DNA of 21,320 bases from a virus. Position 1 is the stretch's first letter; every line of letters begins with the position of its first letter. The DNA lies in the IMG/VR virus record IMGVR_UViG_3300028571_000146, positions 1-21,320 of that record; one strand, given 5' to 3'. The position numbers and the translations under genes were made by a program. Positions 5,004-19,167 of this stretch are shown piece after piece. The notes beneath the pieces were generated by a model, which had not been told where the DNA came from, searched no databases, and saw only the letters and a list, made by a program, of their open reading frames with translations.

Positions 5004-5870
5004 ATGACTACGACAACAACAAAGTCCTTCTTTGTTCCTACTTTGGAACAAACAGGACACTACATAGAGAGAACTTTCGCTGGCAATATCGGTGAAACTC
5101 AAATGTATGACTACGCACTTGAAAACAAAATGAATATCTTAATTGAAGGTGAAGCAGGAACAGGTAAAACAACTTCTGCTATGGCTTACGCTTCAAGGCG
5201 TAAAATGAACTTCTTTGCCGTTCCTTCTAACAACGCACTTGATTTCACACAATTAACTGGTGGATTATTTCCCGATAACAAGGGAGAGTTAAAGTGGGTT
5301 GATGGCGCAATTACTAAGATCGTTCGTGAAGGTGGAGTGTTATTGATTAACGAACTAAATAACGCACCTAAAAATCTTTCACAATATCTAATGAGTTTAT
5401 TAGATGATCGCAGATCAATTACTTTAATGAGCCACGACAACGAAGTTATCCACGCTCACCCTGATTTATTAGTGGTGGCAGATATGAACCCTAACTATCG
5501 TGGAACTCAATTACTTAACGAAGCATGGAAAGATCGCTTTGCTATTAAGTTAACTTACAACTACGACACAAACATTGAAAAGCAAATTGTTAATTCAGGT
5601 TCATTACTGGAACTTGCTAATGGTATGCGTTCAACAATTCGTGTTAATGATGTTAGTTCGTCTGCTTCAACGATATTTGAAACGCCAGTATCTACTCGTA
5701 TATTAAAAACCTTTGAGCAACTTGCTAAGGGTCTTTCTTACGATTTTGCTACCGAAGTATTTGTTAACAACTTTGCTGATGATGAACGACCAGCAGTTCG
5801 CATGTTGTTAGAAGGTAGCGAATACAACATTAAATCCGATCTCGGATTACTTCAACCAGTTAACGCTTAG
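5004..5870 (+). CDS. MoxR-type AAA+ ATPase (CobS/NorQ-like)
   Basis: A 288-residue AAA+ ATPase of the MoxR/CobS/NorQ group, enzymes that remodel partner complexes together with a VWA-domain protein. Visible motifs: Walker A GEAGTGKT (49-56); Walker B region GVLLINELN (111-119), in which the usual Asp of LLIDE is Asn while the catalytic Glu remains; sensor 1 VVADMNPN (157-164); and Arg178 of WKDRF as the likely arginine finger. The length matches single-domain family members. The next gene, 13 nt downstream, encodes the expected VWA partner. CobS itself is part of aerobic cobaltochelatase, but I see no CobN, so the cobalt role is not supported and the substrate is unknown. The start ATG has only a weak GGA upstream. 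Confidence 0.9.
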   Translation: MTTTTTKSFFVPTLEQTGHYIERTFAGNIGETQMYDYALENKMNILIEGEAGTGKTTSAMAYASRRKMNFFAVPSNNALDFTQLTGGLFPDNKGELKWVDGAITKIVREGGVLLINELNNAPKNLSQYLMSLLDDRRSITLMSHDNEVIHAHPDLLVVADMNPNYRGTQLLNEAWKDRFAIKLTYNYDTNIEKQIVNSGSLLELANGMRSTIRVNDVSSSASTIFETPVSTRILKTFEQLAKGLSYDFATEVFVNNFADDERPAVRMLLEGSEYNIKSDLGLLQPVNA

Positions 5871-5883
5871 TTAGGAATAAATA

Positions 5884-7773
5884 ATGGATTATCCATTTTT
5901 AGATGTAGAGAGTTTTCAAGAACTTTCCGATCTAAATAAAGCAACTAAATACAAAGCGGAAATCAAACGCCAAAGAGTTGAAAGGTTTGCTCAATTCTTT
6001 GGCAGAGTTAATTCGGCACTCACACTACGCAAGGTAGAAGTTAAAGTTGAACACGCAGATATAAACGCACCTGCGTGGTCAGGTGCTAGTCATGTTGTAT
6101 TCAATTCACGACTACTTGGTAATTTAGATACCGCAAAAGAAATTGCTGGCTTGCGTGGATTAGATTTACACGAAGTTAGCCATATTCTTTACACACCGAG
6201 AGAAGGTTCGGAGATATTTGAGTGGTGTAGAGAAAATGATTATCTATTTGCCTATAATGCGTTAGACGATCAACGCATTGAAACTTTATTTACAACTCGT
6301 TATCCGTCAACAATAAACTGGTTCACTTCAACAATACTTATTCATTTTGTTGATGATCCAAAAGCGTTTGAAACTTCTTACGGACTATTGCGTGGTCGTC
6401 AATATCTGCCAACAGAACTATTGGCACGATCACGCAACGCATATAAATATCAAGATCACCTTGACGAAATATGCGACATAGTTGACCAGTATCGTTTATT
6501 AACTTTTCCTAACGATACTGAGATCGCAAAAGATTTAATCAAACGCTTTCACGATTTAATGCCAACACAAGAAGTTCCTAATCAAGAAAACTTGGCAAAC
6601 TGGGAACTAGATTTACTTGGTAAAGATAAGTCAGGCAAAAAAATTGTGGTAGCAATTAAATCTCCTTTTGGTCATGGAGAAAGACCACACGAAGGTATAG
6701 AAAGTTCTGCCACTTCACGACCAGTTCCACCAATTCAACAAAAGCGTGATGTTGCTAGGGCTAAATCAATACCACTTAAAGATGATGTTAAATTAGCAGA
6801 ACAATTAAAATCACAACCAGTAATAGAACTTGATTTAACTAATCAAGATAAATCTGCTGATGAAAGTAAGTCTGCTGGTAATAACAAACCTGATGATCTA
6901 TCTGCTATAAAAAATATGTTAGAAAACATATTAGATAATCAACAGATCGCTAATGAGATTAACGACATTATTAGACAAATTGGTGGCTTACCTTCTCTTG
7001 CCACTAACAACTCTAAAGAACCAATTAAATCTCGTTATGAAAATCAATTACCTTGCGCTAAAACTTTTCAGGCTTCATTATCTTTTAGTAGAGAACTGGA
7101 AAGATTAAAAGCAACCTTTGACCCTGCTTGGGAAACTTATCAAGCACAAGGTCGCTTACAAGCGCACAGATATATTCGTGGTGATGATTTAACTACGATC
7201 TTTGATAAGTGGGAACAAGGTAAAGATGAAGCCACAGAAATAGAGTGTGTAATTCTTTTAGATAACTCAGGTTCTATGGGTGGTCATAAAGCACACTCGG
7301 CTTATCGTGCCATGTATGCCATTAAAAAAGCGTTAGATCGTATTAACGCAAACACCACAGTAATTACTTTTAATTCAATTACGAACATTTTGTATCGTGT
7401 TGATGAAAAAGCAACAAATGTAATTCGTAATGCTGGTGCGAGTGGTGGAACTTGCCCAACAGAAGCCATTACATACGCAACTAAAATACTTGCTGAAACT
7501 GAAAAGCCAGTTCGTATTTTCTTTGTAATTACTGACGGAGAGTGGGAAGCCACTTGGGTAAATGAAAACAACGAAGCAATTAAAAAACTGGGTAATGCTG
7601 GTGTGTTAACTGCTTTTGCTTATATCGCTGATAATGCTGAACAGATATATCTTGATAAAGATAAATCTCATTATTGCGAAATTAGTGCGGTTGTTAATGA
7701 CCCACTTAATTTAATTAACATGGCGAGATCAATAGTTAAGTATGCTATTAAACGCAGGTTAGTTAATAACTAA
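5884..7773 (+). CDS. VWA-domain protein with HExxH metallopeptidase-like motif
   Basis: A 629-residue partner of the preceding AAA+ ATPase. The N-terminal half has a zincin-like motif H96-E-V-S-H100 in LDLHEVSHILYT, followed by NALDDQRIETLF (125-136), whose acidic residues may complete the metal site. Residues about 290-390 are polar and probably a linker. The C-terminal VWA domain has a complete MIDAS: DNSGS (460-464), Thr523 in GGT, and Asp551 in ITDGE. This arrangement resembles CobT-like and DUF2201-type proteins (a putative metallopeptidase plus a VWA-like domain) that work with MoxR ATPases. The metal-ion-dependent VWA would bind a target and the ATPase would act on it. Whether the HExxH cleaves anything is not shown. 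AGGAA precedes the ATG. Confidence 0.88.
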   Translation: MDYPFLDVESFQELSDLNKATKYKAEIKRQRVERFAQFFGRVNSALTLRKVEVKVEHADINAPAWSGASHVVFNSRLLGNLDTAKEIAGLRGLDLHEVSHILYTPREGSEIFEWCRENDYLFAYNALDDQRIETLFTTRYPSTINWFTSTILIHFVDDPKAFETSYGLLRGRQYLPTELLARSRNAYKYQDHLDEICDIVDQYRLLTFPNDTEIAKDLIKRFHDLMPTQEVPNQENLANWELDLLGKDKSGKKIVVAIKSPFGHGERPHEGIESSATSRPVPPIQQKRDVARAKSIPLKDDVKLAEQLKSQPVIELDLTNQDKSADESKSAGNNKPDDLSAIKNMLENILDNQQIANEINDIIRQIGGLPSLATNNSKEPIKSRYENQLPCAKTFQASLSFSRELERLKATFDPAWETYQAQGRLQAHRYIRGDDLTTIFDKWEQGKDEATEIECVILLDNSGSMGGHKAHSAYRAMYAIKKALDRINANTTVITFNSITNILYRVDEKATNVIRNAGASGGTCPTEAITYATKILAETEKPVRIFFVITDGEWEATWVNENNEAIKKLGNAGVLTAFAYIADNAEQIYLDKDKSHYCEISAVVNDPLNLINMARSIVKYAIKRRLVNN

Positions 7774-9931: not shown

Positions 9932-10105
9932 ATGGGGTATGTAGAAATTGTAAGGCGAGTATCTAGTAATGAACTAGATATATGCGATCAATGTAATCAA
10001 CAAGGCGTTAAAGAAAACGGCAAAATGATTACAGACAATTACTCTCAGGATATTTTGTGGTTCTGCTATAACTGCGTAGAAGCACAAAAAAGATCACTCT
10101 CTTAA
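9932..10105 (+). CDS. Zinc-ribbon microprotein
   Basis: A 57-residue protein with two knuckles, C18-x2-C21 (ICDQCNQQG) and C45-x2-C48 (FCYNCVEAQKR). The loop of 23 residues between them is typical of a zinc ribbon. It starts directly after the TAA of the TM gene, with GGGGGTGAG upstream as ribosome-binding site. A structured RNA region follows. Target unknown. Confidence 0.8.
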   Translation: MGYVEIVRRVSSNELDICDQCNQQGVKENGKMITDNYSQDILWFCYNCVEAQKRSLS

Positions 10106-10117
10106 TTAAATAAACTT

Positions 10118-10254
10118 GTTGGATAGGCGTTAACACAAGACTTGTCGGGTTCGTTTTCATACCCACTCCTTTCACTTGTGAAGGGCGGTCAAGACTTTTA
10201 TTATCCTTAAATTGCTTTGGATAATAAGACGAGCCGTATCTGCGCCTATTCAAC
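10118..10254 (+). ncRNA. Candidate structured RNA with 12-bp closing stem
   Basis: Bases 118-129 and 243-254 of this kilobase (10118-10129, 10243-10254) form a closing stem of 12 pairs with one G-U. Inside are three further helices: GGGT/ACCC (10147-10150, 10161-10164), an 8-pair hairpin starting CCTTTCAC (10168-10185), and an 11-pair hairpin (10196-10206 with 10219-10229). A GGC/GCC pair (10184-10186, 10233-10235) can extend the last, although it competes with the second hairpin. There is no plausible plus-strand reading frame. It is not a tRNA: wrong length and no T-arm. It sits between a zinc-ribbon gene and an HTH gene inside the rightward operon, so it could be an independent ncRNA or a cis-acting leader. 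Confidence 0.55.
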
Positions 10255-10278
10255 TCCCTAATAGAACTGGATTATTAA

Positions 10279-10443
10279 ATGGAAAATAAAACAATACAAA
10301 TACTTCACCAAAGATTTAACTATCAAAAATCTATATCAGAAGTTGCTCGTATGTTTGGAATATCACGAATACAAGTTAGAAAAATAGAGTTAGAACATGG
10401 AACTAAATACTTACTTCAATTTGGAAAAAAGGAGAACTACTAA
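10279..10443 (+). CDS. Small HTH DNA-binding protein
   Basis: A 54-residue protein. Residues about 18-40 form a helix-turn-helix (SISEVARMFGISRIQVRKIE) like that of sigma-region-4 or small regulator families: hydrophobic positions and the turn Gly (FGIS) fit. It is too short to carry a separate effector domain, so it would act as a minimal DNA-binding protein. It lies 24 nt after the structured RNA and has a weak ribosome-binding site, so the RNA may control it. Its stop overlaps the next start. Confidence 0.75.
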   Translation: MENKTIQILHQRFNYQKSISEVARMFGISRIQVRKIELEHGTKYLLQFGKKENY

Positions 10444-10935: not shown

Positions 10936-11271
10936 ATGACTAAAACTAAAAGCCAAGTATCTTTTACTAAGGCGAGAAAAACAACTAAACCAATAGAACT
11001 AACTATGCCTACACCAAGAGATATAGACAATACTCCATGCCAAACAGTTGACCCTGAAATCTTTTTTCCTGACCCAACTGATACGGCTGGCATTACAAAA
11101 GCCAAAACTCTTTGTGGTAATTGCGATCAAGAAATAAAACAAAAGTGTTTATCTTTTGCTTTAACTAATAAAGTTCACTACGGAGTTTGGGGTGGACTTA
11201 CAGAAGTTGAACGCCAAAGTTTGCTTCGCAAACAATACAGAAGTGGTATTACTAATGTATTTACAAATTAA
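10936..11271 (+). CDS. WhiB-family transcriptional regulator
   Basis: A 111-residue WhiB-like (Wbl) protein, a family confined to actinobacteria and their phages that binds a [4Fe-4S] cluster and works with the housekeeping sigma factor. The cluster cysteines are C35, C60, C63 and C71, and the conserved turn GVWGGLTEVER (83-93) follows. The spacing C63-x7-C71 is two residues longer than the usual C-x5-C. The N-terminal 30 residues are basic and probably unstructured. The basic C-terminal stretch after the GVWGG turn (RQSLLRKQYR) would contact DNA. Phage WhiB proteins can repress host whiB genes or control phage genes; which is the case here is unknown. It sits within the rightward operon. Confidence 0.93.
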   Translation: MTKTKSQVSFTKARKTTKPIELTMPTPRDIDNTPCQTVDPEIFFPDPTDTAGITKAKTLCGNCDQEIKQKCLSFALTNKVHYGVWGGLTEVERQSLLRKQYRSGITNVFTN

Positions 11272-11319: not shown

Positions 11320-11502
11320 ATGAGCGAGTGGCTAACAAATACAGATATAGCAGAATTAACAGGGCTAAAAATAGAAACTCTACACACCTATCTAAATCGC
11401 AACACCCTTCCAACTCCCGACAATTACATAGGGAGAACGCCAGTTTGGAAATCAAATACGATCAAACAATGGATTAAAGACCGAGAACAGGAGATTAACT
11501 AA
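11320..11502 (+). CDS. Excisionase-like / MerR-type HTH protein
   Basis: A 60-residue protein with the winged HTH of the excisionase/AlpA type: WLTNTDIAELTGLKIETLHT, then a proline wing (NTLPTPDNYIGRTPVWKS) and the closing helix IKQWIKDR. It is likely to bind DNA as an excisionase (directing integrase to excision) or as a small regulator. The integrase lies 1 kb downstream, beyond a terminator. An overlapping frame from 11289 has a better ribosome-binding site, and its translation may couple to this start; the HTH frame is the one with protein character. The stop shares two bases with the next ATG. Confidence 0.82.
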   Translation: MSEWLTNTDIAELTGLKIETLHTYLNRNTLPTPDNYIGRTPVWKSNTIKQWIKDREQEIN

Positions 11503-11651
11503 TGGCAACAATGAATATCTATATTGAGTTAAATGATGAGCATGAAGGCGACAATGCGCCAGCGTTTGCTCACGATTTAATGAAATATACCTTTGATGAG
11601 TTAATAATTAAAGATCAAATTAAAAACTACGAGTGGGAGATAATAGAGTGA
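11502..11651 (+). CDS. Small acidic hypothetical protein
   Basis: A 49-residue acidic protein (MATMNIYIELNDEHEGDNAP). Its ATG overlaps the preceding stop and follows a GGAG site. The junction GGAGATTAACTAATGG is repeated before the gene at 11809. Its stop overlaps the GTG of the next gene. Not recognised. Confidence 0.65.
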   Translation: MATMNIYIELNDEHEGDNAPAFAHDLMKYTFDELIIKDQIKNYEWEIIE

Positions 11652-11809
11652 ATAAAGATCAAGCAATTACCGAAATGTTAAATCTACGCCAGTTGTGGGA
11701 ACTAGAACAAAATAGTTCAACAGCAGACGGAAACTCAGATTACGCAACCTATACAGGTGCTATAAATGCGATCAATGTTGCTATTAAAATTGTAAAGGAG
11801 ATTAACTAA
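11648..11809 (+). CDS. Small helical hypothetical protein, GTG start
   Basis: A 53-residue predicted helical protein. The start is GTG overlapping the previous stop (GTGA), with GGGAG 8 nt upstream. It ends with the same GGAGATTAACTAATGG junction, where the stop shares one base with the next ATG. Not recognised. Confidence 0.65.
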   Translation: MNKDQAITEMLNLRQLWELEQNSSTADGNSDYATYTGAINAINVAIKIVKEIN

Positions 11810-12345
11810 TGGGATTAGACATGTATTTATATGCGGAAAAGTATATTGGTAGTTCTACTGATGAAACTGGCTCGTGTAATAAAATTAAAAATCTTGCTGG
11901 ATTAAAAGATTTACCTGCTCCCAGTTTTTCCAGTGTATTAGTTAAATCAATGGTTGGTTATTGGCGAAAAGCCAATGCTATTCATGGCTGGATAATTGAT
12001 CGGTGTGGCAAGGGCGTTGATGAGTGCCAACCAATTTATTTAAGTGATGATGATTTATTAAATCTAAAAAACGATAGTATTAAGGCTTTGGCAAATCCTG
12101 ATCGTGAATATCAAATCACAAATAATAAAGTTTTTTATCAATTATGTGATTACTTAAATACTTTAGAAAAACCAATTACAGTTGATAATTATGAAAATCC
12201 ACTTAAACCAGTTGAAGGATTTTTCTTTGGTGGTGATGAATTAAGCGATTATTATTATGAACAACTGGAATACACTATTGATTTAATCAGTTCTCTATTA
12301 GAAAACGATCAAGAGTTGGGATTTATTTATCAAGCCAGTTGGTAG
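11809..12345 (+). CDS. Conserved phage protein (MGLDMYL family)
   Basis: A 178-residue soluble protein. The signature features are the N-terminus MGLDMYLYAEKY, a central VGYWRKANAIHGW, and GFFFGGDELSDYYYEQLEYT near the C-terminus. I recognise this as a phage protein type seen in many unrelated phages and of unknown function (memory of the family, not a search). Aromatic and charged residues dominate and there is no TM segment. It is the last gene of the rightward operon; repeats and an intrinsic terminator follow. Confidence 0.82.
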   Translation: MGLDMYLYAEKYIGSSTDETGSCNKIKNLAGLKDLPAPSFSSVLVKSMVGYWRKANAIHGWIIDRCGKGVDECQPIYLSDDDLLNLKNDSIKALANPDREYQITNNKVFYQLCDYLNTLEKPITVDNYENPLKPVEGFFFGGDELSDYYYEQLEYTIDLISSLLENDQELGFIYQASW

Positions 12346-12536: not shown

Positions 12537-13874
12537 ATGGCGTATGTGGTTAAGCGTAATAACAGATTTACTGGTTATTACAGGCTTGGAAATAGGCGTT
12601 TATCGGCTGGCACATGGGCTAATAAGAGTGAAGCCATATATCACGCCATAGAAGCGGAGAAACAGGGTTCTATTGCCCCTTCAAAGGCTAATTTAAGGGT
12701 AGGCGATTTTATAGATCAATGGTTAGCGGTATCTGACCTAATGCCGATCACAAAGAAGGGCTATAAATCAGTTTTAAGCAGGTTTGTAGTTCCAGTAATC
12801 GGTGAGCGTGAACTAACTTCCCTGAAGCCCGTAGAACTTACTAAGTTAATTGATGATCTAAAACTATCGGGAGTTAAGTCAGCGACCTTAAATCAAATCA
12901 AGGCTTCTCTCGGTTCTATGTTTTCAAAGTTAGTTAGTGCTGGTCAGTTGGAAAGAAATCCCACGCATGGAATTAAGATCAAGGTTAATCATGCGGATAT
13001 TGCCAAGTTAATTGAACCTGACGAGTTCAAAGAGATAGTGAAGTTTTTACCGACACAAGGGGCAAAATTGTTTGCTCAGTTTTTAGTAGTAAGTGGGTGT
13101 CGCTATGGTGAAGCAACGGAAGTAAGGGCAAAAGACATTAACTTCAAAACTGGAGAAGTTTTTATTCAAAGGCGAGTTAGTGATCTAGGGAAGCAATACA
13201 ACAAGGGTAATCGGTTTTTAGTAGTAGAAGCCACGAAATCGGGGCATAAGAGAAGCGTAGTAATAGGAAAAGCCCTATTACAGCAATTAAAAGCGTATGT
13301 CCTAGCAAAAGGCATAGCAAAAGATGACTTGATGTTCCCAAGAACAATTTTATTAACGGAAGGTAAACTTAAAGGTTCACGAAGCACAAAGCCTTCTCAA
13401 CCATTTGAGAAAGGCGGAAAACAGTTCCAGCATGAAACTCTTTACTCCTATACACATGGGGGTTGTAGATGTGAAAGGTGTAGGCAAGCAGTAGCAAACT
13501 ACCGCAAAGCCAAAGCCCAAGCAGAAGCACCAGCAGAAGCAGAGCAGGTAAGAAGCGGAAGCCGTAAGGCAAAGCAGAAGCACCAGCAGAAGCATAAGCA
13601 AGGGAGTTTCATCAACAATATGAGCCACATGCCTCGTGATGTATGGAGAACAACATGGAACAAAGCAATAGCCAAGTCCGCAATCGGCTGGTATCCGAGA
13701 ACTCACGATTTACGACATGCCAATGCTACGCAGTTGTTAAAGAACGGCATAGACATACATGAAGTAAAAGAGCGATTAGGACACCAATCGATCAAGACGA
13801 CAGAGCGGTATTTACACCGCCTTCGTTCACACCAGTCAAAGGCATCTGAAAGTGCCAACGACTATTTGGAGTGA
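12537..13874 (+). CDS. int: Tyrosine-type site-specific integrase
   Basis: A 445-residue tyrosine recombinase that would integrate and excise the element at att sites. The N-terminal arm-binding region is at about 1-55 and the SAM-like core-binding domain at 55-150. The catalytic residues are all present: Arg189 (SGCRYGE), Lys234 (ATKSGHKR), His390 and Arg393 (THDLRHAN), His416 (RLGHQSIK) and Tyr425 (ERYLHR). Between Lys234 and His390 is an insertion of about 60-70 residues: a Cys knuckle C310-x-C312-x2-C315 (THGGCRCERC), then a Lys/Gln/Ala repeat stretch (323-355) encoded by repetitive DNA. Family members are usually 350-400 residues; the insertion accounts for the excess. AGGGGG lies 5 nt before the ATG. 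The stop is followed at once by the lysozyme-like gene. Confidence 0.96.
   Translation: MAYVVKRNNRFTGYYRLGNRRLSAGTWANKSEAIYHAIEAEKQGSIAPSKANLRVGDFIDQWLAVSDLMPITKKGYKSVLSRFVVPVIGERELTSLKPVELTKLIDDLKLSGVKSATLNQIKASLGSMFSKLVSAGQLERNPTHGIKIKVNHADIAKLIEPDEFKEIVKFLPTQGAKLFAQFLVVSGCRYGEATEVRAKDINFKTGEVFIQRRVSDLGKQYNKGNRFLVVEATKSGHKRSVVIGKALLQQLKAYVLAKGIAKDDLMFPRTILLTEGKLKGSRSTKPSQPFEKGGKQFQHETLYSYTHGGCRCERCRQAVANYRKAKAQAEAPAEAEQVRSGSRKAKQKHQQKHKQGSFINNMSHMPRDVWRTTWNKAIAKSAIGWYPRTHDLRHANATQLLKNGIDIHEVKERLGHQSIKTTERYLHRLRSHQSKASESANDYLE
13519..13594 (+). repeat. 23-bp direct repeat in AGC-rich tract
   Basis: A perfect 23-bp sequence (13519-13541) recurs at 13572-13594 inside the integrase gene. The copies are read in different frames, one giving QAEAPAEAE-like and the other KQKHQQKHK-like protein, so the similarity is at DNA level. 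Related AAGC/CAAAGC units continue to about 14520. Confidence 0.8.
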
Positions 13875-17176: not shown

Positions 17177-18679
17177 CTATTCTTCTATAGATTGTTGAAT
17201 AATTTTTGTAACTGTATCTTCTTTTAAAGCATCAGGTAACTCACGAAGAGCCTGCGCTCTATCTCCAAAGATTGCAGAAAGAACTCCACCAGAACTTTGG
17301 CGCTCTGCTGTAATGCGGACAAACTCTCGATTTTCTTCTAACTCTTTTAAATTACCAACAAGTTTGAACAAACGATCAATCTCTTGAGATACATTAGGAT
17401 CAGCATATCCGCCATTCATTTCTTCTGCAAAACGCATAAAAGCCACTCTTTGGCCTTGCATTTCAATAATTGCATTAAGTAAAGCCTTTAGTTGATCTTT
17501 AGTCTTTACTTCTACAGGAAGGTTAAAAGCACAACTATTGTCAGGCTTGAAAGCAGGACAATTTGAGGCAACAAAACAGGTATTACATTGGCGAAGTGAT
17601 GAGTGTTGATTGTTAATAATTGGAACATCTTTAAGGACATCCTTTCCTTCTTCATCAGTCTCTACTATAGTTTTCATTTTATATCCAAAAACAGGTAAGT
17701 TTTGAACCTCCGAAGGGTCTCTTTGTACCACTTCGTTAGTAGAATTTTTCCGCATTTCTACCTCACTGTTATCAGAAGACGGTATCTCAAATCCCATTAA
17801 ACCTGTTAACAACTCATCGCTGTTATCAGATACTTTCTCTTCTTTTCCACCATTAATAATATGAAAGTTTGGGCTCTTTTTATCCATTGACTCCTCTAAT
17901 CGTTTGTAAGACCATACGGCAACTTTAGTTGCTTCAAGGGTACCATCTTGGACAAACTCTAAATAGTCTAGTCCAGCCTTCTCTACTATGGGCTTATATC
18001 TTGGTCGTGCTTGATCCTTCATTCTCTTGGGATAACGAACTAACTTAGTTCCATCCCAAATAATAGTTTCACCTCTCCGCATTGGAGATAGCCAAGACAA
18101 TGTGCTTGCAGTGACAAATGGTATCTGTCTTAAGTTGTCTGGTTTTGCACATCCAAGGGCGTGGTATTTAATATTAAACTGTCTTGAATAACTTCTGGTA
18201 ACAGCCGCTAAGTTAGTTACAGACTCAATTTCTGCGTAAGGAATAACAAGGTTAGAATACTTTTCAGACATCTCTTTTAATTTTAATAAACCATATTCTT
18301 CATGCCAAACAACCCATAACTTCGGGTCGTTAGCAAAGAAGGGGCGTTGTTGTTCTACCCACTCTAACCCCAAAATTAAAGAATCAAACTCTTGAAAAGC
18401 CTCTGCTCTGTCAGAGTTATTTACTAAAAACTCTTGATAATCAGCGGCTATTTCAAGTAACTCTTCTTTTGATAAACCAGCCTTATCTGCTTGGGATGCT
18501 CCAGACTCGATGTAAACTTTAGTCTCTGGAGTAAAGTGCTCACTTATAAGCCATAATTTAGTTTTAGGCAATCCCCGTTTACGAAGTCCCCAGTAGTTAA
18601 GTCCCATCGACTCAACTTTCATGCCTTCAAGAAGAGTGCGGTTAGACCCCACCTCTGTGCCGCTAAAAATTAATTTCAT
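17177..18679 (-). CDS. Probable TIM-barrel (TGT/DpdA-like) protein with C-terminal Cys cluster
   Basis: A 500-residue protein with two parts. Residues 1-265 show the strand-loop rhythm of a TIM barrel related to phage tRNA-guanine-transglycosylase-like proteins: KLIFSGTE, VYIESGASQ (in the place of the DSGGFQ segment), LWVVWHEEYG, KYHALGCAKPDNL and PFVTASTLSWL. The expected catalytic acids look changed (ESGA for DSGG, no Asp at TASTLSW), so activity is doubtful. After a polar linker, a Cys cluster C365-x2-C368-x5-C374-x8-C383 may hold an Fe-S cluster or zinc, and a long helical tail follows. Start: the frame opens with TTG at 18691, but the ATG at 18679 overlaps the upstream stop (TAATG) and begins at the first strand. 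No queC/D/E-type genes are seen in the window. The function is inferred and uncertain. Confidence 0.6.
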   Translation of the reverse strand: MKLIFSGTEVGSNRTLLEGMKVESMGLNYWGLRKRGLPKTKLWLISEHFTPETKVYIESGASQADKAGLSKEELLEIAADYQEFLVNNSDRAEAFQEFDSLILGLEWVEQQRPFFANDPKLWVVWHEEYGLLKLKEMSEKYSNLVIPYAEIESVTNLAAVTRSYSRQFNIKYHALGCAKPDNLRQIPFVTASTLSWLSPMRRGETIIWDGTKLVRYPKRMKDQARPRYKPIVEKAGLDYLEFVQDGTLEATKVAVWSYKRLEESMDKKSPNFHIINGGKEEKVSDNSDELLTGLMGFEIPSSDNSEVEMRKNSTNEVVQRDPSEVQNLPVFGYKMKTIVETDEEGKDVLKDVPIINNQHSSLRQCNTCFVASNCPAFKPDNSCAFNLPVEVKTKDQLKALLNAIIEMQGQRVAFMRFAEEMNGGYADPNVSQEIDRLFKLVGNLKELEENREFVRITAERQSSGGVLSAIFGDRAQALRELPDALKEDTVTKIIQQSIEE

Positions 18680-19167
18680 TAATCTTGCCAAAATTCTAAA
18701 TCTTTAGGAGCAGCAGCATCTTTTGATTTAGCAACGTTTATTCTATTTATAGACGCTTCAATTTGATCCCATTGGCGAACTTTTTTAGGAGCATCAGGTC
18801 GTCGTTCAACGGGTAAATACCCAGGATTCATAAACATGATTGCTGGAAGACCTTGTTCTTCAAATACCCAAGCACACATAGTTGGATCAGAGTCTACGTA
18901 TAATTCAATTGGAGCACGACTGCGGCTCATTACAAACTGACGTTTTTTTAAATCTTCGCCTTCTAAATGAAAAGAACGGTCAATTAAATCATCATAGTTA
19001 ATAATTCCGTGAGAGTTTAACCAGTGTTCAGCATCAATGGTAGTCCGAGAGGTCATTAAAGCCACTCTATTATTTACATTTAAAGCGTAGTAAAGCATCA
19101 CACCTGCTCGGATTGGTTCACCTGTATCCGAACTAAGTACTCCGTCTAGTGATAGTAATACGTTCAC
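18679..19167 (-). CDS. HAD-like protein, nucleophile Asp replaced
   Basis: A 162-residue protein with the HAD core: motif I LLSLDGVL (5-11), motif II LMTSR (37-41), a Lys pair (74-75) for motif III, and YVDSDP (90-95) for motif IV. HAD phosphatases use the first Asp of DxD in motif I as nucleophile; here the position is Ser6 and only Asp8 remains. A normal phosphoaspartate mechanism is therefore not possible, unless the alignment is shifted. It could be a binding or regulatory relative, or a phosphatase that lost activity. It starts with GTG, with AAGGA 5 nt upstream, after the nucleotidyltransferase gene. Confidence 0.75.
   Translation of the reverse strand: MNVLLSLDGVLSSDTGEPIRAGVMLYYALNVNNRVALMTSRTTIDAEHWLNSHGIINYDDLIDRSFHLEGEDLKKRQFVMSRSRAPIELYVDSDPTMCAWVFEEQGLPAIMFMNPGYLPVERRPDAPKKVRQWDQIEASINRINVAKSKDAAAPKDLEFWQD

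Follow-up and report, generated by a model that had tools for sequence, protein, structure and literature searches.

We identified a structured RNA at positions 10118-10254 (+ strand, 137 nt) of the window, the whole 21,320-nt stretch of IMG/VR record IMGVR_UViG_3300028571_000146, and found relatives of it in at least 26 IMG/VR loci. Comparison of these relatives shows a core of ~90 nt, maintained by compensatory changes, which consists of the closing helix P1, the long-range helix P2, and an arm built from P3, an internal loop, and P5. The RNA family is new relative to Rfam 15, and it belongs to a broad kind, the structured phage noncoding RNAs (ncRNAs), that is already known. We give somewhat better than even weight to a reading in which the RNA is processed from an operon transcript and acts in trans, probably bound by a protein, instead of switching the downstream gene.

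The RNA lies in an intergenic gap (10106-10278) within a run of + strand genes. As an earlier note on this DNA had described, this is a true gap between packed genes, extending from the stop codon of a 57-aa ORF (9932-10105, + strand), 12 nt before the RNA begins, to the ATG of a 54-aa ORF (10279-10443, + strand). The latter encodes a Sigma70_r4-like helix-turn-helix (HTH) protein (PF04545, E 1.1e-6) and was found only in the clade of the window and in L064-like phages. The gene content suggests that the operon is an early one. ARAGORN detected no tRNA or tmRNA genes in the window, in agreement with the first impression that the element is not a tRNA.

Folding the 137 nt gave a minimum free energy (MFE) of -46.6 kcal/mol, compared with -28.6 ± 3.7 kcal/mol for 200 dinucleotide shuffles, none of which folded as well (z -4.9). 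The RNA thus beats shuffled sequence, a comparison that had been proposed as a check. The complementary strand is likewise well folded (z -4.2), as expected from long helices. In the compact members of the family, z scores against shuffles range from +0.95 to -2.6 for most, and not all beat the shuffles; therefore, folding energy alone would have missed them. The predicted 12-pair closing helix with a single G-U is formed by 10118-10129 and 10243-10254. Three inner hairpins, also predicted from the window alone, are present in the MFE fold, but the upper stem of the middle one competes with the conserved P2. Since the compact, strongly diverged relatives show that the pairing kept is CACAAG/CUUGUG, we revised the fold of three simple hairpins to one with P2, a predicted pseudoknot, and a kink-turn-like arm.

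Relatives were gathered by several routes. With the neighboring HNH protein as query, IMG/VR yielded 20 loci (L002-L021) at 82-99% protein identity, all of which carry the RNA at the same place with 89-95% nucleotide identity (near-identical in L002). Two pairwise comparisons (with L003 and L012) put the identity of the RNA at 92.6-92.7% versus 76-87% for neighboring genes, and conservation is likewise lower in the HTH gene than in the RNA. Loci with an HNH identity of 58% or less had no covariance-model match. Patterns built on core motifs added L064, with the RNA at the same place and 82% identical, and L077, with an RNA of ~90 nt at a different place; a looser viral pattern returned only chance coding matches, L077 excepted. 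A scan with ribonucleotide reductase (RNR) queries from the window and L077 brought in 80 further loci, including those with diverged copies (L098, L099, L100, L102, L104, L105, L106, and L123). The copies in L121 (E 3.6e-12) and L129 (E 1.6e-7) were found by the covariance model alone, and neither was in any seed. A refined model (R2) found no further copies in the same loci. Model R1, run on whole records with less sensitivity than cmsearch, found no new carriers and missed L129. With filters off, the RNA-negative loci L101, L103, L108, and L114 showed no convincing diverged copy. One candidate, L082, was dropped, as it resembles coding sequence.

We analyzed covariation in two alignments: A3, 14 sequences aligned with plain MAFFT, and A4, with all 26 matches (25 distinct). 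In A3, standard pairs fill 90.7% of cells and 18 of 29 pairs have two-sided changes, with a covariation score of 0.468; shuffles reach 0.209 and slid partners 0.08-0.17. Two-sided changes occur in 18 of 22 pairs in A4, which is model-fitted and hence biased towards the model. For a tree-based null, the substitutions of each column were re-dealt over the branches of a FastTree tree and scored with an APC-corrected G statistic, an approximation in the manner of R-scape that is distinct from R-scape itself. At E<0.05, A3 has 8 passing pairs out of 27 and A4 has 14 out of 22; off the structure, none passes in either alignment. P1, P2, P3, and P5 carry many compensatory changes, so the covariation check suggested for the relatives came out in favor of a conserved RNA structure.

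All helices are on the + strand. P1 (10118-10129/10243-10254) has two-sided changes in 9 of 11 modeled pairs, and 6 are significant against the tree-based null on A4. P2 joins CACAAG (10134-10139) to CUUGUG (10175-10180), with two-sided changes in five of six pairs and significance for five of six in both alignments. Its forms include CACAAG/CUUGUG, CGCAGG/CCUGCG, AGUAGG/CCUACU, AGAGAG/CUCUCU, and GCGGG/CCCGC, among others. P3 (GCGGU, 10185-10189, with GCCGU, 10233-10237) has two-sided changes in four of five pairs and 99% of cells paired; it occurs as GCGGU/GCCGU, CUAUC/GAUAG, UUGGU/GCCAA, and GUGUC/GACAC. The two basal pairs of P5 (10196-10206/10219-10229) are universal, being 100% paired as UA, CG, GC, or UG, and its other pairs are lineage-specific. 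A lineage-specific GGG...CCC hairpin between the P2 strands (10147-10164) is missing in compact relatives. A further helix, P4 (CCUU, 10168-10171, with AAGG, 10181-10184), is paired in 91% of cells and has no two-sided change; therefore, we treat it as predicted. Placed around the 3' strand of P2, P4 would create an H-type pseudoknot in the predicted fold.

Several unpaired or junction bases are also strongly kept. Junction J1/2 (UUAA, 10130-10133, + strand) reads UYAA in every member and is invariant or nearly so, as is the CUG of junction J3/1 (AUCUG, 10238-10242, + strand). The AAG of the P4 3' strand (10181-10184) is nearly invariant. The internal loop between P3 and P5 also keeps a fixed pattern on both strands. 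Its long strand (C-A-A-G-A-C, 10190-10195, + strand) follows C-A-N-G-A-Y in 25 of 25 distinct rows, and its short strand (C-G-A, 10230-10232, + strand) follows N-(G or U)-A in every distinct row. Kink-turns are laid out as a three-base bulge followed by tandem sheared G.A and A.G pairs. The loop matches this layout by consensus, its flanking helices covary, and it is probably a kink-turn. L104, L105, and L106 have A.U as the second sheared pair. In most members, U.G is the last pair of the bulge-adjacent stem, and C.C is often the first pair past the sheared ones; thus, folding of the kink-turn may need a protein or magnesium. Because these near-invariant unpaired bases are kept as the gene context changes, we would expect the RNA to have a specific partner.

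It is hardly credible that the locus works without any RNA, as a DNA operator with dyads or as a small protein. Inverted repeats are present, and in several compact members an SD-like AAGG stands 7-8 nt before an AUG (AAGG...CAUGAC). However, covarying positions freely accept G-U pairs, which argues against this reading. The AUG is AAG in the clade of the window, L064, and L123 and AGG in L129, and a small ORF from CAUGAC was ruled out because its AUG is not conserved. Furthermore, RNA length differs between relatives by indels that are not multiples of three. A conserved protein, named beforehand as a finding that would count against an RNA, is not encoded here.

Next, we searched known families and genomes. 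The whole window has no match at gathering score to the 4227 families of Rfam 15. Relaxed Rfam searches with the copies from the window, L077, L102, L129, and L064 returned only sub-threshold or terminator matches, with a single sub-threshold chance match for the window copy. A blastn search of 50,697 records of cultured phages gave short chance or terminator matches only. DNA patterns of the conserved core, requiring exact cores, found no copy in 84,980 bacterial and archaeal GTDB genomes; the first pattern allowed 3-33 nt between blocks, which would miss the type seen in the window, and the second allowed 13-43 nt. Our models found no copy in Actinomycetia phage DSL-LC01 (complete), Mycobacterium phage Gaia, or Gordonia phage ChisanaKitsune. 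Among open-library titles and abstracts, none describes this RNA. Together, covariation and the absence of an Rfam match strongly support the original proposal of a new structured RNA. The family is new relative to Rfam 15, the reference for this statement; published surveys of candidate RNAs, such as PMC2864571 and PMC8040213, deal with RNAs of the same type.

The genomic surroundings of the RNA differ between lineages. The RNA is always on the strand of the preceding genes, and these genes vary between the clade of the window, the L077 type, and the L121/L129 type. Behind the RNA, the clade of the window and L064 have the HTH gene, L121 and L129 have other genes, and nine diverged loci (L077, L098, L099, L100, L102, L104, L105, L106, and L123) have an intrinsic terminator within a few bases of the RNA 3' end, with a strong hairpin (-24 to -29 kcal/mol) and a T-rich tail. 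The next gene in these nine loci is a convergent RNR. As the RNA is kept while its neighbors change, we regard it as a genomic unit independent of them. A block common to L121 (~18945-18985) and L129 (~11480-11520, - strand), AAAGTTTGTGTTGGCCCACCC, was seen behind the RNA; it is shared despite the differing surroundings of the two loci and may be a promoter or a further RNA element.

The earlier note had left two options, an independent ncRNA or a cis-regulatory leader, and the relatives favor the ncRNA. A leader or riboswitch controlling the HTH ORF (10279-10443) is improbable, although the RNA does lie ~25-35 nt ahead of the HTH start in the clade of the window and L064. In addition, ACUCC just 3' of the RNA (window 10255-10278; e.g., L003:7077-7110) can pair with the GGAG before that start, and the resulting CUCC...GGAG hairpin could hide the HTH Shine-Dalgarno site in several clade members, being weaker in the window. 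However, the terminator and convergent gene behind the nine diverged copies exclude a leader role there, the RNA is followed by other genes in L121 and L129, and the lower conservation of the HTH gene relative to the RNA also speaks against this role. A leader function could hold in the clade of the window at most.

The main rival to our favored explanation is a cis-acting mRNA element, inactive as a free RNA, in which the fold behind the stop codon would block exonucleases or set the stability of segments of the early-operon mRNA. We consider this possible but unlikely. It is consistent with the start of the RNA at 0-23 nt past the stop codon in most loci (52 nt in L129; the called frames of L100 and L104 slightly overlap the RNA, and the ORFs in L064 and L104 may not be real), and with the terminator directly behind the RNA in nine loci. 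It also agrees with a promoter and terminator scan around the window copy, which detected no terminator and one promoter-like match, inside the RNA, such matches being fewer than in shuffles; no promoter of its own was found there. On the other hand, the near-invariant unpaired UYAA, AAG, CAnGA, and CUG exceed what a plain barrier needs and make a partner likelier, and the upstream genes that such an element would protect vary among lineages.

A role as guide, antisense, or replication RNA, in which the folded molecule would act by pairing its loops with a nucleic acid target, is quite improbable. In its favor, the P5 apex is exposed and variable, and RNA-based origins have been reported in some mycobacterial prophages (PMC7157519). 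In L036, the P5 apex ranks 4 of 618 for pairing with the ribosome-binding site of the second downstream gene (ORF 10443), but in the window the rank of this site falls to 504 of 1049; P5 was extracted for four of eight loci in this ranking, and we rejected this antisense pairing as not conserved. Moreover, compact members have just a short P5 helix. A guide RNA for the HNH gene was ruled out, since the diverged carriers lack the HNH neighbor. In L036 (~7481-7540) and L034 (~10980-11030), the P5 arm could pair in part with sequence ahead of the second downstream gene, a complementarity that is absent in the window.

We also inspected other genes of the window. A WhiB transcription factor (10936-11271; PF02467, E 2.6e-18) points to an actinobacterial host, and the carriers look like actinophages; whiB is also reported from cultured Nanopelagicales phages (PMC10202952). 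A tyrosine-type integrase homolog (12537-13874; phrog_1, E 3e-51) suggests a temperate phage or its remnant. Adjoining the RNR is a queuine tRNA-ribosyltransferase-like gene (17177-18691, - strand; phrog_887, E 7e-58), whose product could be a member of the 7-deazaguanine modification pathway. An AAA ATPase followed by a VWA/CobT-like protein (5004-7773) is a pair that also occurs in Gordonia phages. A bacterial Y RNA with Ro60 was rejected: the VWA protein (5884-7773) matches VWA and CobT_C models only, and none of the 10 window proteins in the Pfam scan has a TROVE domain. A 178-aa protein (11809-12345; phrog_7971) has clusters in 11 of 17 RNA-positive versus 1 of 68 RNA-negative loci. We rejected this family as a partner by co-occurrence, as kinship confounds the counts, flanks are incomplete, and a more sensitive search adds RNA-negative loci.

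According to the favored reading, that of a processed, trans-acting RNA, the operon transcript would be processed to release the RNA, with the intrinsic terminator setting its 3' end in most of the diverged relatives. The released RNA would then act in trans as a separate molecule, with P2 and P4 forming an H-type pseudoknot and the internal loop a kink-turn. Most probably, a protein of host or phage origin would bind it at the kink-turn arm and at the conserved bases of the junctions. More tentatively still, and in our view rather unlikely, the RNA may be an early host-takeover or counter-defense effector, capturing an RNA-binding protein or a ribosomal component of the host.

Several known RNAs resemble this family in part. 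GOLLD and ROOL have been reported from phage or prophage contexts. Like GOLLD, ROOL, and OLE, orphan structured ncRNAs found in phages and lake metagenomes (PMC12286853), the RNA described here has a strongly conserved fold and no assigned job. However, those RNAs fold differently and span several hundred nt, whereas the core here has ~90 nt and no match to any of their Rfam models. The SAM-I riboswitch and box C/D RNAs share the kink-turn layout, in which two helices flank a three-base bulge and the G.A and A.G pairs after it; in our family, this layout stands next to a long-range helix. The helix order and conserved bases differ from both, most loci have no gene to regulate, and no Rfam match exists. 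Bacterial sRNAs derived from 3' ends also start near a stop codon and often end at the intrinsic terminator of the operon. In contrast to these, the fold here is far more elaborate, and no conserved antisense region was found. Lastly, viral exoribonuclease-resistant RNAs (xrRNAs) are similar in having a compact pseudoknot (predicted here) near the 3' end of a viral mRNA, but they come from other kinds of viruses, and here the 5' end lies within a long helix and the predicted fold shows no ring.

With this family, actinophage-like phages gain a well-supported class of orphan RNA whose fold is defined almost pair by pair. The alignment and covariance model are ready for use on larger metagenome collections and existing lake metatranscriptomes, and whether the RNA exists as a free molecule is directly testable. 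If the host-capture proposal is true, this pseudoknot and kink-turn RNA would represent a class of phage RNA without a described relative.
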